Assembly (NCBI GenBank): GCA_903970405.1
Contig: CAJCIT010000164.1
Span: 1 to 50,589 of the forward strand
Reading direction: 5' to 3'
DNA: 50,589 nt
Origin: Acidobacteriaceae bacterium
GTDB lineage: Bacteria > Acidobacteriota > Terriglobia > Bryobacterales > Bryobacteraceae
This document shows, in pieces, positions 16,024 through 24,460 of this stretch. How positions within the stretch are numbered: position 1 is the stretch's first letter; each line of letters begins with the position of its first letter. The position numbers and the translations under genes are program-made. The notes beneath the pieces are model-generated. The model was not told the DNA's origin. It did no database searches and saw only the letters and a program-made list of their open reading frames with translations.

Positions 16024-17670
16024 TTACACCGTTCCCTGCTTCATTTGCCCAGCCAAATAATCCGTCGATCGCCACGCCAGCGCCAGAATCGTCAGCGTCG
16101 GGTTCTTTTCGCTGGCAGTTGTAAACGAAGACCCATCCACCACGAAAACGTTCTTCACTTCGTGCATCTGGTTGAAGCCATTGAGGGCCGCCCGTTTCGG
16201 ATCGTCACCCATCCGGCATGTGCCATGTTCGTGGATGGCGCTTCCGGCGGCGTCCAGATCGCCACGCTGAAACGGCATGATCTCGGCCTTGGCGGAGCGC
16301 AGAATGGCTTCGGCCGTATCGTACATCTCGGCGGCCATACGCTGCTCATTCTCGCCCGTCTTGTATTCAATTCGCATCAAGGGAACTCCGTAGGCGTCGG
16401 TCCCGGTTCCTTCCACGGTGATCCGGTTGTCATGGCGGCCAATCACTTCGCCATAGGGATGCAAGGCCACCAGCGCCGGGTAACGTTTCTTGATGGCGGT
16501 CTTCAGATCCACGCCAAAGCCAGGAAGCCGCTTGCCGAAATCCGCACTCTCGCCCGCTCCGCACCCCCAGAACTGCATGCCGTAACCGCGCAGGTAATCT
16601 CGCTTGCGGCCGTCCCGGTGATTGAAGCGCGGCATGTAGATGTGCTCGCCGCCAATGCCACTGTCGTCCTGCGTCGGCGCGCCTATCAGTTCAGGCATGA
16701 AGCCGTACATGTGGAATCGGATCTGCTCCGATAGATACCTTCCAATCACGTCGTTGCTGTTGCCGATGCCGTTTGGATAGCGGGCCGACCGCGAATTGAG
16801 CAGAATGCGGGTGGAATCGATGCAGGAGGCGGCCACGATAACGACACGTGCCCGCAGTTGGTGCTCCTCTTTTGTTCGCCGGTCGAAGTATTGAACGCCG
16901 CTCGCCAAGCCGCGGTCGTCCACAAGCACCCGCGCCACCACGGCATTGTCCACCACCTGCAATTTACCGGTGGCGAACGCCGGTTCAATCAGAAAATCGG
17001 ATGAGTTGAAGAACGCCCCCACATCGCAGCCTTTGCCGCAGGCGCCGCAATAGTGGCAGGCCGGATGGCCGTTATGAGGCTTGGTGAGGACGGCCCGGCG
17101 TCCCGCGACAATCGAAATGCCGGCGTTCTTAGCCGCCTTTTGGAGCAGCCTCTCTCCGCAACGAGGCGGGGGCGGCGGCAAGTGATACCGGCTGCCGGGT
17201 AACGAATCCTGGTCGTCATCGCCCCCGCAGACGCCAATCCATTGATCCACCTTGTCATAGTAGGGAGCAATGTCTTTGTAGCGGATGGGCCACGGGATTT
17301 CCCAACCGTCCTTCGCCGGCCCCTCAAAATCGACGTCGGAATAACGAAGCGAAACGCGGCCCCAGACATTGGTTTTCCCGCCGCGGCCCCACACTCGAAC
17401 TAAGTCGAACGGATAACCGGGCGGGGTCTCGTAAGGCTGTTCTTTCGTGCTCAGGTAGAAATCGGGGGAGTGCTCCCCATTGGCGCGCCGCGCCTCCGCT
17501 TGCCAAGGCTTTACGTGCGACCAGAACTTCGAACGGCTGAAGCGCTCGCCCGCATCGAGCATCAGAACGTCCACCCCTTGGCGGGTCAGGTTCCAGGCGG
17601 CCATTCCCCCGGCGGCGCCGCTGCCGATAATAACCACGTCGTGAACCGGGCCAGGCGTCTTGATCTGCAT
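16024..17670 (-). CDS. GMC family oxidoreductase (FAD-dependent)
   Basis: A 548-residue glucose-methanol-choline oxidoreductase. The FAD-binding Rossmann motif is at the N-terminus ([17 protein letters not shown]), the middle has a cysteine-containing [15 protein letters not shown] segment, and the C-terminus has the active-site pattern [10 protein letters not shown] ... [20 protein letters not shown]. It would oxidise an alcohol or sugar and pass electrons on through a small-subunit partner, in the manner of gluconate 2-dehydrogenase. The longer frame reaches 17784 inside the upstream gene, but I start at ATG 17670: it directly precedes the dinucleotide-binding strand and leaves a 4-base gap after the upstream stop. 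The upstream gene encodes the matching small subunit. Confidence 0.9.
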
Positions 17671-17674
17671 GCTT

Positions 17675-18229
17675 TTAACTCTGGTGCTCCGGATGGGTAC
17701 ATCCGGGGAACGAGGTTCGATATGTATTGCCCTGAAAGCCCAACTCTTGAACAAGTCCTTCGCGCGAAGAGTAGTAAGCGTCAATCGTCATATTCTTGAG
17801 AGATTTGAAAAACGGGTGAGGCGGATTGCTGGCGGACATGGCGGTGAGAATCGCCACTTGACCATCGTGAGGGAGACCGAGAAAGGATCCACCGGATGCC
17901 TGATTCACGTGCGCGAATCCATTCGCAAATGTTTCCATCACGCGAGGATTCACCTCCGCGCGGCGATCGATCCAATAGGGCACGCCTGCGTCCACTGCGC
18001 CAGGCGTATCGGTTCGCGGAATGATCAGATCCGTCAGGCAGGCTAATAACGCGAAATCCCCGGTCGAGAAAGCCCGCGGATTTCCCGCAGCCTTGTGCCC
18101 TTCTTCAGCGGCGTCCCCGGAATGAGTGTGATGGCTTTCTTCTTGTGAACCGGGGCCCGCGTCCACCAGAGTCTTGGCGATGGCCGGCGTTGCCGCCAAA
18201 ACAGCGAGAGCAGTGCGTCGACTTGTCAT
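17675..18229 (-). CDS. Gluconate 2-dehydrogenase subunit 3 family protein
   Basis: A 184-residue protein of the gluconate 2-dehydrogenase subunit 3 family, the small subunit that typically accompanies a GMC flavoprotein. The N-terminus ([20 protein letters not shown]) looks like a Tat signal, suggesting the partner enzyme is carried out of the cytoplasm with it. Family motifs are [20 protein letters not shown] and [11 protein letters not shown] His-rich linker ([17 protein letters not shown]) sits between signal and domain and could bind metal. Four bases separate its stop from the GMC gene. A possible promoter lies upstream, between it and the divergent phosphodiesterase gene. Confidence 0.87.
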
Positions 18230-18265
18230 AATTACATCTAACTCGGAGGTCTGGCGTATTGAGGC

Positions 18266-18295
18266 AGTATATACCGTTATCAGGCTTGCTCAGAA
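18266..18295 (-). promoter_or_regulatory. Candidate sigma-70-type promoter of the GMC/subunit 3 operon
   Basis: On the minus strand a TATACT box (18266-18271) lies 37 bases upstream of the subunit 3 ATG, with TTCTGA 18 bases further upstream. The -35 match is weak (three of six). It lies in a 150-base divergent spacer shared with the plus-strand phosphodiesterase operon. This is a pattern match only. Confidence 0.3.
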
Positions 18296-18379
18296 GCCGC
18301 GAGACAATGGAGCCGTGAAAGAATCGGCGCGCGGTGGCGGGCCTGCCGGTCCGGGCTGCGGTGCGATACTTGCAGAGTG

Positions 18380-20557
18380 ATGGCAAGGCCTGACGAGACC
18401 CAGTCTCAAGATGCCTTGTTTCATGGGCAAAAGCATATCCGGGCCTTCATTGGCGTGCTCCTGGCCGCAAGCGGGTTGCTCGATGTCTTCTTTTTTAGCG
18501 GGGCGCCCCCACACGATGCGCTTCATCAGGCCTACATTGGTCCCGGCGCGGGATTCGCGTTTCTCGGTTCATTTCTCGCCATCGCGCTCTCGCTTCTGGC
18601 AAGCCTGGTCTCGTTGTTGGTCTGGCCGTTCCGGATTCTTTGGCTAGCGTTGCGGCGCCAAGGCCGCTTTGGAAACGCGCAAGTGAAGAAGGCGATCGTC
18701 TTGGGGCTGGACGGCCTCGATCCAAAACTCACCGAACAATGGATGGCGGAAGGGAAATTGCCGAATTTGGCCCGATTGCGGGAAACCGGGTCTTACAGCC
18801 GGCTCCGGACCACCTTTCCCCCACTATCGCCCGTGGCGTGGTCCACCTTTGCGACCGGCGTCAATCCGGCTCGTCACAACATCTTCGATTTCTTAAATCG
18901 CGATCTGCGCACTTATGCGCCTGAGCTTTCGTCGGCGCGCGTATGGCCCCCATCGCGCTTCCTGAAGATACTCCGATGGCGAATCCCGCTGTCGAAAGCA
19001 CATGTGGAATTGAAGCGCAAGAGCGAACCGTTCTGGAACATTCTTGGACGGAATGCCATCGGCAGCACGATTCTTCGCGTACCCGTCACGTTTCCGCCGG
19101 AGCCATTCAACGGGCGGCTGCTATCGGCAATGGCGACGCCCGATCTGCGCGGCACCCAAGGCAGCTTTTCATACTTTTCCAGCAGGCCCTCGAATAACCC
19201 TTCCGCCGCGGCGGATGCGCCGGCAGCCGAAGGTGGAGTGCGTCTTCCGCTGACCGCGCGCAATGGCAGGTTTACCGGCTCTCTGACGGGTCCGGAAAGG
19301 GCGCAAGTAAGGTTTGAGGTGAAGGCCATCGACGACATGAGCGCCGAGCTTTCTATCGATCAGCAGACGTTGACGCTCCGGTTGGGCGAATACACGGACT
19401 GGATCAGGCTACGCTTTCCCACCAGGGGCATCGCATCGGCGCATGGAATTGTCCGGTTCCTCTTGACGGCAATCGCGCCCGATGTCTCGGTCTACGTGAC
19501 GCCGGTCGAGATTGATCCGGAAAACCCCGCTCTTCCCATCAGCTATCCCAGCTACTATGCAATCTATCTGGCCAAACTGCTGGGTTCGTTCGCCACCCTG
19601 GGCATGGCGGAGGATACCTGGGCTTTGAACGAAGGGGCCATCGATGAGGACGCGTTTCTTAAACAGGCCACGCTGATTCAAGCGGAGCGGGAGGCCATGT
19701 TTTTCAGTGCGCTGGACCGCACCAAGCGCGGCGTGGTGGCGTGCGTGTTCGATACCTCAGACCGCGTGCAGCACATGTTCTACCGATACCTGGAGCCGAC
19801 CTCGCACGGCCCCGGATTAGCTCGCCACGCGGCTGTGATTGAGGACCTCTATCGCGACATGGATCGCGTGGTGGGGCAAACGATGAAGTACGCCGGTCCG
19901 GAGACGGCTCTATTCGTTCTCTCAGATCACGGCTTCTGCTCATTCCGGCGAGGCGTGAATTTGAACGCCTGGCTGCGCCAAAACGGGTACCTGGCGTTGG
20001 AGACGGGACTCGCGGAGGGCGGCGAGTACTTCGCCGGGATCCACTGGCCCCGCACGCGCGCCTATACATTTGGATTGAGCGGCATTTATCTGAATGTTCG
20101 CGGGCGCGAGGCCCAGGGCGTCGTGACCAGAGAAGAAGCGTCGGCTCTGCGAGAGGAGCTGAAGTCGAAACTAGCGGGGCTTGTAGACGAGGCGGAGGGT
20201 GCGGTGGCCATTCGCGATGTGTACGATGCGAACACGATTTATAACGGACCGTACCTGGATGCGGCGCCCGACTTGATTGTGGGCTATGCGGCCGGGTACC
20301 GCGCTTCATGGAGCGCGGCGGTAGGCAAAGTAAGCGCCAATGTTTTTGAGGACAATTCGAAGTGCTGGAGCGGCGACCATTGCGTGGATCCGAGCCTGGT
20401 GCCGGGCGTACTGTTCTCAAACCGGAAACTGATGGCGCCCGACTCAGCCGTTAACCCAAGCGTTGGCCCAGGCATCGAAGATATGGCGCCGACGATTCTG
20501 CGGCTGTTCGGCGTCGACGTGCCGCGCTGGATGGAGGGCCGGCCGCTATGCGTTTGA
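18380..20557 (+). CDS. Membrane-anchored type I phosphodiesterase/alkaline phosphatase family protein
   Basis: A 725-residue protein of the alkaline phosphatase superfamily (type I phosphodiesterase/nucleotide pyrophosphatase branch). Two N-terminal hydrophobic segments (about 21-40 and 55-83, the latter AYIGPGAGFAFLGSFLAIAL) anchor it. The catalytic domain starts at KAIVLGLDGLDP (metal-binding D111), with the nucleophile region PPLSPVAWSTFATG (probably Ser150), and later VLSDHGFCSFRRGVNLN and GDHCVDPSLVPG giving further metal ligands. An inserted beta region lies at about 240-400. The substrate is unknown: nucleotide, lipid or glycan phosphate. GTG at 18377 is an alternative start. It is the first gene of a three-gene overlapping operon, overlapping the small gene by 10 bases. 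Confidence 0.87.
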   Translation: MARPDETQSQDALFHGQKHIRAFIGVLLAASGLLDVFFFSGAPPHDALHQAYIGPGAGFAFLGSFLAIALSLLASLVSLLVWPFRILWLALRRQGRFGNAQVKKAIVLGLDGLDPKLTEQWMAEGKLPNLARLRETGSYSRLRTTFPPLSPVAWSTFATGVNPARHNIFDFLNRDLRTYAPELSSARVWPPSRFLKILRWRIPLSKAHVELKRKSEPFWNILGRNAIGSTILRVPVTFPPEPFNGRLLSAMATPDLRGTQGSFSYFSSRPSNNPSAAADAPAAEGGVRLPLTARNGRFTGSLTGPERAQVRFEVKAIDDMSAELSIDQQTLTLRLGEYTDWIRLRFPTRGIASAHGIVRFLLTAIAPDVSVYVTPVEIDPENPALPISYPSYYAIYLAKLLGSFATLGMAEDTWALNEGAIDEDAFLKQATLIQAEREAMFFSALDRTKRGVVACVFDTSDRVQHMFYRYLEPTSHGPGLARHAAVIEDLYRDMDRVVGQTMKYAGPETALFVLSDHGFCSFRRGVNLNAWLRQNGYLALETGLAEGGEYFAGIHWPRTRAYTFGLSGIYLNVRGREAQGVVTREEASALREELKSKLAGLVDEAEGAVAIRDVYDANTIYNGPYLDAAPDLIVGYAAGYRASWSAAVGKVSANVFEDNSKCWSGDHCVDPSLVPGVLFSNRKLMAPDSAVNPSVGPGIEDMAPTILRLFGVDVPRWMEGRPLCV

Positions 20558-20742
20558 AGGAGACCGTCAAACTCAACAAGTCGATTTGCGACCGGGCCCG
20601 AGCGGTGGTGCGGAAAGCCGGCTACAGTTCATTGGAGGAGTTCATTGAACACGCCATGGAGCGGGATCTGGGACGGCTGGAGCAAGCGGAGTCAAAGGAG
20701 AATTTGATCGAAAGGCTGAAGGGGTTGGGCTACCTGGAGTGA
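20548..20742 (+). CDS. Small ribbon-helix-helix-like protein between two phosphodiesterases
   Basis: A 64-residue protein: a basic beta-like N-terminus (MRLKETVKLNKSICDRARAV) followed by two amphipathic helices (AGYSSLEEFIEHAMERDLGR and a Glu/Lys helix ending RLKGLGYLE). The first ~45 residues resemble CopG/Arc ribbon-helix-helix proteins, so DNA binding as a dimer is plausible. The C-terminal LKGLGYLE ending resembles the LKxLGY tail seen on many sulfatases and phosphatases, which may hint at docking to the neighbours instead. The ATG overlaps the upstream stop by 10 bases and its TGA overlaps the next GTG (GTGA), so it is translationally coupled on both sides. Confidence 0.75.
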   Translation: MRLKETVKLNKSICDRARAVVRKAGYSSLEEFIEHAMERDLGRLEQAESKENLIERLKGLGYLE

Positions 20743-23369
20743 CTCCGGTCGACTTAGGCGCGGGTTCGCTGGCGCTGATTGCCGCCGTGGGTCTGGTTAC
20801 GGGCGTAGTTAGTATCTGGTTTATCAGGAGGCTCACAGATGGCGCCCGCGTGCGCGCCGCCGTGAACCTGGTTATCGCGCACTTACTGGAGTTTCGGCTC
20901 TTTGCCGCGGAACCCGCCGTCATCGTAAGGGCTCAATGGTACCTGATTGTGGCGAACGGGCGTCTATTGCGCTTGATTCTGATTCCTTCGCTCTTGTTGC
21001 TGCTGCCGTTCCTGGCGCTGATTGCTCTGTTGGACGGTGTGCTCGGACACGCGCCGATCAGGGTGGGCGAGCCGGCGGTGATCACGGTGCAATGCCGGAA
21101 TGCGCCAGACACCTTAACCGGCGATATTCGCCTTGACGCTCCGCAAGGTATTGCCGTTGAGAGCCCGCCCGTGCGAATTCCAGCCGGCGCGCAGGTGTGT
21201 TGGCGCGTACGGGCGCTTTCCGCGGTCTCAGGCTCGCTCCAGATCCATGATGGCGGCCGCTTAGTGACTAAAACGATATCCGCAGGAGAGGGGCTGCGAC
21301 GACTCTCTACTCGCCGGGGCGGCGCGGTTTTTTCACTTCTGCTGCATCCCTGGGAGTTGCCCTTTTCCGACCCGAAAATCGAGTGGATTGGCATCGAGTA
21401 TCCGAAGGCCACTGTGTACGGCGCGCACTGGCTGTTCTGGTTCTCATTGGGTTCTCTCATCGGCATGGCGATAGCCCTGATGCCAGGCTGGCGCTTCCCC
21501 GTCGCCACGCTTCTGCTCATCGCCTCGAGCGCGTCCTGCCTTTCTGATAAGACCTCCGGTTACCCCAGCGTCATCGTGCTGGGAGTGGATGGCATGGATC
21601 CGGCCTTTGTGGAACGCCATTGGGACGCGCTCCCCAACTTGGCTGCCCTCCGCCGCCAGGGGTCATTCCTCCGTCTGGCCACCACGACGCCTCCGCAGAG
21701 CCCTGTGGCTTGGTCCACCTTCATTACCGGCCTCGAGCCGGCAGACCATGAGATCTTCGACTTCGTTCACCGCGACCCCAGAATGCTTCAGCCCTTTTCA
21801 TCGATGTCCCGGACGGAGGAGGCGGCGAAGACGCTCACACTGGGGCCGTACCTGCTTCCCTTGTCGAGTTCGCGCGTCGTGTCTCTTCGCCAAGGCACGC
21901 CTTTTTGGACCACTCTGGCCGCAAAGGGGATTCCCGTCGAAGTGGTCCGCATGCCCACCAACTACCCGCCCGAACAGCAGGGGCATGCGCTCTCTGGAAT
22001 GGGAACGCCCGATCTGATCGGCACTCTCGGCACATTCACTCTCTTTACCGGCGATCCGCTGGAAGCCTCGCGGGATGTGCCTGGCGGCAGGATCGTCAAG
22101 GTGGCGTTCAACGGAAACCGCGCGAACCTGGTTTTGGAGGGGCCCCGCAATACCCTGAGAAAGGACGGCCGCGTTACCTCGGTGAACGTAACCGTGGATG
22201 TTGACCCGGAGAATGCGGCTGCCAGAATCAAGATCGGAGAGAACACGGTCATCCTCAATGAGGGCGAATGGTCCGATTGGATTCCGGCCGATTTCCCATT
22301 GATTCCTCACCTTTCCTCGGTCACGGGGATGGTCCGAATCTTTGCCAGGCAGCTTCGGCCTGGCCTGGAACTCTACTTCTCTCCCATCAATATCGATCCG
22401 CTCAACCCGGCGCTTCCCATCTCGGCGCCTCCGGACTGGTCAAGCGCTGTCGCGCATGAAGCCGGGCGCTATTACACCATGGGTACTCCTGAAGACACCT
22501 CGGCCCTGCGTCAGAACGTTCTGACACTGGATCAGTTTCAAGCGCAAACCAAGCTGGTCTTCGACGAAGAACACCGGCTGCTTCAGTACTCTCTCCGCCA
22601 CTTTCGCGGCGGTCTGTTGTTCTTCTATTTCTCCTCCATCGATCAGAATTCACATATTCTGTGGGACAGGTATGAAGCGGACCTGTTAAAGGTCTACCGG
22701 GAGATTGACATGTGCGTCGGTGAAGTCAGGAACTCGGCGCCTGGTGCTGAGTTGATTGTGATGTCTGACCACGGTTTCACCAGCTACCGCCGTTCGGTTC
22801 ATCTCAATACCTGGCTGAATCATCGCGGCTTCCATGGCGTAACCGGGCCAGCGGGAAACGAGACGGACTTCTCCGCTGTCGATTGGCCCGCGACTCAAGC
22901 CTACGCACTGGGACTGAATGGCCTCTATGTCAATCTCCAGGGCCGCGAGGCTCATGGAATTGTGCTGCCCGGGGAACAGCGGCGCGCCCTGATCGCCAAT
23001 CTGCGTCAGCAACTGCTGGCGTGGCGCGATCCTCTGGATGGCCGGCAGATTGTCGAATCCGTGGATGAGACCCGGATCACCCCTCATAACGCCGAATTCG
23101 CGCCCGATCTCATTGTCGGCTACGCGCGCGGTTATCGTGGCTCCTGGCAAACGGGCCTGGGTGGCATGGCCCCGGAAGAACTGGAAGACAATATGGACGC
23201 CTGGATCGGCGATCACTGCATCGACGCACGCGAAGTGCCGGGCGTCTTGTTTACGAGCAGGAAGATCTCCGGCCCCGGACCGCGGCTTCAGGACGTCACG
23301 GCTTCCGTTCTCGGACTCTTCGGTCTGAATCCGCCGAAAGGCTCATCGGCCAGGAACTTCTACCATTGA
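20739..23369 (+). CDS. Membrane protein fused to type I phosphodiesterase/alkaline phosphatase domain
   Basis: An 876-residue protein. The N-terminal part (1-270) has membrane helices at about 7-30, 76-98, 228-250 and 253-267, with a beta-rich segment between (about 100-185) and the motif VIAHLLEFRLFAAEPAVIVR. The C-terminal part (about 275-876) is a second phosphodiesterase, paralogous to the first: VIVLGVDGMDP, TTPPQSPVAWSTFITG, VMSDHGFTSYRRSVHLNTWL and GDHCIDAREVPG. The junction TLLLIASSASCLSDKTSG looks like a lipoprotein signal peptide, suggesting a fused former lipoprotein. The start is GTG at 20739, overlapping the small gene's stop. It probably acts on a phosphodiester substrate at the periplasmic face. 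Last gene of the operon. Confidence 0.85.
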   Translation: MTPVDLGAGSLALIAAVGLVTGVVSIWFIRRLTDGARVRAAVNLVIAHLLEFRLFAAEPAVIVRAQWYLIVANGRLLRLILIPSLLLLLPFLALIALLDGVLGHAPIRVGEPAVITVQCRNAPDTLTGDIRLDAPQGIAVESPPVRIPAGAQVCWRVRALSAVSGSLQIHDGGRLVTKTISAGEGLRRLSTRRGGAVFSLLLHPWELPFSDPKIEWIGIEYPKATVYGAHWLFWFSLGSLIGMAIALMPGWRFPVATLLLIASSASCLSDKTSGYPSVIVLGVDGMDPAFVERHWDALPNLAALRRQGSFLRLATTTPPQSPVAWSTFITGLEPADHEIFDFVHRDPRMLQPFSSMSRTEEAAKTLTLGPYLLPLSSSRVVSLRQGTPFWTTLAAKGIPVEVVRMPTNYPPEQQGHALSGMGTPDLIGTLGTFTLFTGDPLEASRDVPGGRIVKVAFNGNRANLVLEGPRNTLRKDGRVTSVNVTVDVDPENAAARIKIGENTVILNEGEWSDWIPADFPLIPHLSSVTGMVRIFARQLRPGLELYFSPINIDPLNPALPISAPPDWSSAVAHEAGRYYTMGTPEDTSALRQNVLTLDQFQAQTKLVFDEEHRLLQYSLRHFRGGLLFFYFSSIDQNSHILWDRYEADLLKVYREIDMCVGEVRNSAPGAELIVMSDHGFTSYRRSVHLNTWLNHRGFHGVTGPAGNETDFSAVDWPATQAYALGLNGLYVNLQGREAHGIVLPGEQRRALIANLRQQLLAWRDPLDGRQIVESVDETRITPHNAEFAPDLIVGYARGYRGSWQTGLGGMAPEELEDNMDAWIGDHCIDAREVPGVLFTSRKISGPGPRLQDVTASVLGLFGLNPPKGSSARNFYH

Positions 23370-24190: not shown

Positions 24191-24460
24191 ATGGAGCCAA
24201 CCGTCCTAGGCGTCACCGCGGCTGAACTGGCTGGCGATGTGCGGGCTATCCTGCACAGCGTTGAAACCGGGGCGGAGGTGATCATCGAAAGGAATGCACA
24301 GCCCGTGGCGGTTCTGCGCGCCGCAGTCCCTTCGCACCGCAAGCTCTCAGAATGCATTGCTCTGCTGCCGGCGGATTCAACAGCCGCCATTGACCCTGAC
24401 TTCGCCGCCGATGTGGAAGCCGCAATCGCGGCTCATCGGGAACCTTTGGACACGCAATGA
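24191..24460 (+). CDS. Phd/YefM-type antitoxin without a recognisable toxin
   Basis: An 89-residue protein with the prevent-host-death pattern: a short beta strand and helix (VTAAELAGDVRAILHSVETG) followed by the characteristic EVIIERNAQPVAVLRA, then an acidic/helical tail that would wrap a toxin. Antitoxins of this type bind DNA and usually precede a PIN or Doc toxin. Here an ATG overlaps the stop (ATGA at 24457-24460), but that frame ends after 13 codons and shows no PIN motif, so the toxin seems lost or replaced. It follows the cyclophilin gene closely. Confidence 0.75.
   Translation: MEPTVLGVTAAELAGDVRAILHSVETGAEVIIERNAQPVAVLRAAVPSHRKLSECIALLPADSTAAIDPDFAADVEAAIAAHREPLDTQ

Follow-up and report, generated by a model that had tools for sequence, protein, structure and literature searches.

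The predicted ribbon-helix-helix (RHH) protein encoded in this DNA, a membrane protein (M) and two phosphodiesterase-like enzymes (PDE1 and PDE2) constitute a real and hitherto undescribed membrane enzyme module of Acidobacteria and Planctomycetes, in which the constant partner of the RHH protein is M. The window, that is, the whole stretch analysed (contig CAJCIT010000164.1, 50,589 nt), holds four of the five parts of this conserved module (S, PDE1, PDE2, RHH, and M); the fifth, S, a sulfatase-fold protein (PF00884) with no transmembrane (TM) segment, is encoded on another contig of the same genome. A literature search returned no description of such an operon or module.

Arrangement of the module genes

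The features of the operon in the window are as follows.

18380..20557, + strand: PDE1, with an ATG at 18380 and an in-frame GTG at 18377 (Pfam PF01663, hydropathy, charge flanks)
20548..20742, + strand: gene of the RHH protein, 64 aa
20739..23369, + strand: third gene, an M-PDE2 fusion with a GTG start
20548..20557, + strand: PDE1/RHH overlap, 10 bases
20739..20742, + strand: RHH/M-PDE2 overlap, 4 bases, GTGA
20695..20739, + strand: C-terminal tail of the RHH protein, residues 50-64, ENLIERLKGLGYLE region
20739..21506, + strand: M domain, residues 1-256 of the third gene, a separate gene in most relatives
21480..21539, + strand: fusion seam, with the remnant of the PDE2 lipoprotein signal, MPGWRFPVATLLLIASSASC
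21561..23369, + strand: PDE2 catalytic domain, residues 275-876 of the third gene (PF01663)

The original prediction of three genes overlapping by 10 and 4 bases (GTGA) agrees with these coordinates, and a GTGA-type junction between RHH and M is also kept in several relatives. Its description of two membrane-anchored enzymes of the phosphatase superfamily held for the enzymes, both of which belong to PF01663, but not for the anchor of the second: the N-terminal ~250 residues encoded by the third gene make up a protein in its own right, M, which most relatives encode separately and which was taken for the anchor of PDE2 because it is fused in front of it here. In relatives, M and PDE2 are two genes and PDE2 is a separate lipoprotein. 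At locus L073, where the order is PDE1-RHH-M-PDE2, the stop codon of M is followed a few bases on by the start of PDE2, which has its own lipoprotein signal; in the window this signal survives as the segment linking the M and PDE2 halves, and probably now forms a fourth TM segment of the third gene. The usual order in relatives is S-PDE1-PDE2-RHH-M, with M as a separate gene of ~250 residues. The position of the small protein between two enzymes, considered as the conserved feature and rejected, is therefore a local accident special to this genome and caused by the fusion of M to PDE2. In events separate from the one that joined M to PDE2 here, M has been fused to a sulfatase-fold enzyme at three other loci, in L034 and L036 in place of PDE2 (coordinates with RHH on the + strand).

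L034:7186-9381: M-sulfatase-fold fusion, with TPR
L036:7186-9384: M-sulfatase-fold fusion
L055:2076-5294: M-sulfatase-fold fusion

PDE1 and the PDE2 part of the third gene matched PF01663, the type I phosphodiesterase/nucleotide pyrophosphatase family, at E 6e-35 (121.8 bits) and E 7e-33 (115.1 bits), respectively, against a cut-off of 23 bits. By inspection, the catalytic motifs were present in both enzymes (D, Ser nucleophile, D..H, DHG, and GDH), and the metal and nucleophile motifs of PDE1 were intact (GLDGLDP, SPVAWS, DxxDxxxH, SDHGF, and GDHC); a comparison of PDE1 with solved structures gave no match below E = 0.01. PDE1 has two N-terminal TM segments (residues 23-41 and 60-78, numbered from the GTG at 18377), and its catalytic domain is probably on the cytosolic side, a topology based on hydropathy and charge only; the catalytic domain of S probably lies on the same face. 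PDE2 is predicted to be a periplasmic phosphodiesterase of the alkaline-phosphatase superfamily and is a lipobox lipoprotein in relatives. PDE1 and PDE2 differ from other PF01663 members in being predicted to act one on each membrane face and in having no C-terminal LGY tail, which is present in further members encoded by the same genomes. The PDE2 proteins of order-family f3 (L196, L198, and L200) have an N-terminal twin-arginine lipoprotein-like signal (MTRRRFAQAV...C), which may mean that Tat replaces Sec as their export route.

Among the neighbours of the operon in the window, a GMC oxidoreductase gene and a gluconate 2-dehydrogenase subunit 3 gene lie divergently on the minus strand (16024-18229) and have the spacer 18230-18380 in common with PDE1, while a lone Phd/YefM-like antitoxin ORF with a weak PF02604 match lies close downstream (24191-24460). 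In relatives, genes named by inspection were seen just downstream of M: a sulfate adenylyltransferase/APS kinase-like gene at L042:7813-9654, a similar gene at L040:6317-7564, and an APS kinase-like gene at L053:6429-7004 (RHH on the + strand). A link of the module to sulfate activation was considered from these neighbours and set aside, since they were found at these three loci only. The unlinked PDE1 and PDE2 loci had no conserved neighbour genes that could serve as a clue to a pathway.

Co-inheritance of the module

We followed the module in 150 genomes of the order and in 297 genomes sampled across the phylum Acidobacteriota; kinship of the genomes inflates the p-values of all co-occurrence counts. 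In the order sample, a single RHH query found homologues in 55 of 150 genomes, far beyond chance. Once weak matches that are other RHH proteins were left out, the RHH protein was present in 54 genomes, M in 55, and PDE1 in 58. All 54 genomes with the RHH protein also had PDE1 and none lacked M, while 4 had PDE1 and no RHH protein. In the phylum sample the RHH protein and M occurred in exactly the same 77 genomes, and PDE1 orthologues were found in 73 of these and in 2 others (73/4/2), the orthologue cut-off (E below 1e-165) being a natural gap in the list that was picked after viewing it. In order-family f3, PDE1, PDE2, and the RHH-M pair lie at three distant sites and all have been retained, so neighbourhood alone does not explain the co-occurrence. 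Outside Acidobacteriota, the operon was found in Planctomycetota, in a Desulfobacterium, and in single MAGs labelled otherwise.

Across 80 loci, from a scan seeded with the RHH tail and therefore partly preset to show that tail, M adjoined the RHH gene in 77, and M together with both enzymes was present in 55. These results bear out the tight link of the small protein to two enzymes that had been proposed: its homologues lie with such enzymes rather than mostly away from them. Tandem RHH gene pairs were seen at L066:6992-7399 and L130:4203-4598, the second copy at L066 having a degenerate and extended tail.

Predicted folds of the RHH protein and of M

The 64-residue protein is predicted to have a ribbon-helix-helix fold, as had been suspected from its sequence. 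It is present in a single copy in its genome, and its dN/dS was 0.01-0.14 in pairs with unsaturated dS, which speaks for a coding frame under purifying selection rather than the value near 1 expected of a spurious frame. The AF2 model (pLDDT 87) has helices at residues 11-24 and 29-45 and a third helix at 50-60, followed by the tail GLGYLE; since the strand of this fold forms only in the dimer, the model covers the helices. It fits the strand-helix-helix plan of about 45 residues, and the top Foldseek matches were NikR, MazE, and ParD2, with weak E values in a list made up mostly of RHH proteins. NikR was the best match by both sequence and structure (profile against the NikR RHH domain, E 0.02), and weak VapB-like and PSK_trans_fac similarity was also seen. 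The best Pfam RHH_1 score, reached by one orthologue, was E 0.0016 (18.8 bits against a cut-off of 20.5), and RHH_1 was unlisted for the window protein itself. The most conserved parts are GYSS, EF, the tail and, within helix 2, a His and a Glu; the conservation of the tail is partly by construction. In the strand, position 7 is K/R in 95% of the proteins and T/S/K is conserved at position 5. Compared to NikR, MazE, ParD, and Arc, the protein is alike in its strand, its two helices, and the GYSS..EF(V/I) loop/helix signature, and differs in its third helix, in the exact C-terminal GLGY(L/I)(E/D) tail, in the strongly conserved His/Glu on helix 2, in its sub-threshold RHH_1 score, and in its fixed membrane-protein partner.

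M is probably a bacterial member of the Oxa1 superfamily of the EMC3/DUF106 type with an inserted Ig-like domain, as its sequence profile suggests. The AF2 model (pLDDT 94) places TM1 at residues 8-32, cytosolic helices at 35-54 and in the first part of 59-102, the long helix of which ends as TM2, a periplasmic Ig-like domain of about 100 residues at ~106-226, and TM3 at 231-247; the model and the charge pattern agree on three TM segments, the first two joined by a helical hairpin on the cytosolic side. When the M profile was compared with the PDB, a single chain fell below E = 1, MJ0480 (5c8j), an archaeal YidC-like DUF106 protein, at E 1.3e-10. The alignment spans TM1 through TM2 and has another, weak segment at TM3; hhalign gave a probability of 94. 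A profile built without Acidobacteriota, mostly from Planctomycetota with the Desulfobacterium and single MAGs, again found only MJ0480 (E 6.7e-4). In Pfam, PF01956 (EMC3_TMCO1) matched 7 of 41 M members and the next family 2, with scores short of the family cut-off (best E 0.0018). Matches to the Ig-like part (Z up to 6.8) took up the list of the structure search, whose result thus applies to that domain and not to the membrane part. M is like MJ0480, EMC3, TMCO1, and Get1 in its order of TM1, cytosolic helical hairpin, TM2 and, further on, TM3, but differs in being bacterial, in the Ig-like insert between TM2 and TM3, in its obligate RHH and phosphodiesterase partners, and in scoring below the EMC3_TMCO1 cut-off; any insertase activity of M is putative. 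DUF106 has been described as archaeal, its three TM helices corresponding to TM 1, 2, and 5 of Oxa1, and the branch familiar from bacteria is that of YidC, with five TM helices (PMC8887752), while the non-archaeal members named for PF01956 are EMC3 and TMCO1 (PMC8675477). A literature search found no report on bacterial EMC3-like proteins.

The C-terminal tail and the possible role of the RHH protein

When RHH orthologues were collected without the tail as a seed, nearly all of them had GLGY right at the C-terminus, and loci retrieved with the whole protein as query end in GLGY(L/I/V) plus one residue, except for second tandem copies. The likeness of this tail to the C-termini of sulfatases and phosphatases, noticed in the original prediction, is real, since LKGLGYLE recurs C-terminally in other enzymes of the sulfatase fold, which are mostly exported, and of the phosphodiesterase fold, which have no signal and are probably cytosolic. 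In the PDE1/PDE2 cluster the tail was found in 0 of 128 proteins. In the order sample, the only one in which the tailed proteins themselves were read, tailed enzymes occurred in 20 of 54 module-positive versus 3 of 96 module-negative genomes; the three exceptions comprised two near-identical non-sulfatase proteins, one of them scanned and MauE-like, and one match without an open frame. In the phylum sample, matches to the tail pattern were present in 43 of 220 genomes without RHH and M. The idea that the tail is a signal read only by the module, supported within the order, was rejected for the phylum on this count; the tail is thus a feature of such enzymes in general, and one that the RHH protein shares.

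Our best guess, favoured over a DNA-binding regulator as the main rival, is that the RHH protein is a cytosolic adaptor that lends the M/PDE assembly its LKGLGYLE tail in trans; we put this reading forward tentatively, as quite possible though short of probable. An RHH dimer would present two such tails, which could serve PDE1 and PDE2 in place of the motif that other sulfatase- and phosphodiesterase-fold enzymes carry in cis, and would connect the cytosolic hairpin of M with PDE1 (and S). More speculatively, the enzymes on the two membrane faces might have a common substrate, the head group of a single envelope lipid or lipid-linked polymer, with M providing a path or scaffold between the leaflets; the combination of catalytic domains on both faces with an Oxa1-type protein suggests a substrate of this kind, and Oxa1-type proteins or insertases have been reported to scramble lipids (PMC10491306, preprint). 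An adaptor is consistent with the co-inheritance of RHH, M, and PDE1, kept in f3 although unlinked and recurring as an operon across phyla, with the fusion of M to PDE2 here and to sulfatase-fold enzymes in others, with the lack of a shared operator word, and with a tail common to other superfamily enzymes and absent from PDE1 and PDE2; the match of M to MJ0480 (PDB, hhalign), with EMC3_TMCO1 as top Pfam family, also argues for it. Against it stand the RHH fold with a basic residue, K/R, at strand position 7, the sub-cut-off Pfam scores of M, the hydropathy-and-charge basis of the PDE1 topology, and the apparent presence of tailed enzymes in many genomes without RHH and M, so that the tail is not read by M and RHH only.

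RHH domains usually bind DNA, and a conserved basic strand residue in this fold usually marks DNA binding; together with the T/S/K at position 5 and the weak NikR/MazE/ParD similarity, this speaks for an autoregulator of the module with the tail as its input, held at the membrane when docked to M or a phosphodiesterase and repressing or activating when released, comparable to the membrane capture of Mlc. We regard this as possible, though somewhat less likely than the adaptor. Against it, the spacer (18200-18390) has no inverted or direct repeats, no 8- to 10-mer was common to the unlinked PDE1, PDE2, and RHH upstream sequences of six f3 genomes above shuffles, and the RHH gene lies late in the operon, tied to M and not to the first gene. 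Each of these counterpoints is non-decisive, and the operator tests are weak; the f3 upstream sequences searched look mostly coding. PutA, a trifunctional protein with an RHH domain and a membrane-associated enzyme, moves between DNA and membrane and is a precedent for tying an RHH domain to membrane association; in the present module the RHH unit is a protein of its own, 64 residues long, and the enzymes are of unrelated kinds.

The kinship of M to an archaeal YidC-like protein, the inseparability of RHH and M, and the much greater frequency of tailed enzymes in module-positive genomes of the order would also fit M as a working insertase or holdase, to which the RHH protein, as a cytosolic client-recognition factor, brings the LGY tails of new enzymes. 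We consider this unlikely, as the tail pattern also occurs phylum-wide without the module and a tail placed at the very C-terminus of a soluble RHH protein has the look of a ligand rather than of a receptor. A type II toxin-antitoxin pair, with an RHH antitoxin encoded before and overlapping a membrane toxin, matches the gene order and the weak VapB-like and PSK_trans_fac similarity, but is very improbable: the RHH protein is single-copy and strictly co-inherited with PDE1 across phyla, M has no toxin similarity and resembles an Oxa1-family protein, there was no match among 72,556 plasmids, and PADLOC gave no notable match. Neither a known toxin partner nor a patchy, mobile distribution was thus found, and this candidate was rejected.

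Returning to the adaptor, its fullest form, in which a bacterial EMC3/DUF106-type M is the hub of a two-sided phosphodiesterase machine in several phyla and a protein of DNA-binding fold has been reused to supply a tail, strikes us as somewhat unlikely. If true, it would place in bacteria, in a defined genetic setting and with named partners, a branch of the Oxa1 superfamily otherwise of archaea and the eukaryotic ER, would give an RHH protein a membrane protein rather than a promoter as its fixed partner, and would make a clear prediction for the role of the LxxLGY tail that is widespread at the C-termini of sulfatase-fold enzymes.

A literature search gave no account of the LGY tail. Several sulfatase-fold membrane proteins or lipoproteins per genome end exactly in L(K/R)SLGY(V/I/L)Q (G031, G013, G032, G006, and others), apparently an undescribed common C-terminal motif of the sulfatase-fold class, and further genomes of the phylum sample with the tail pattern are G164, G175, G218, and G369.
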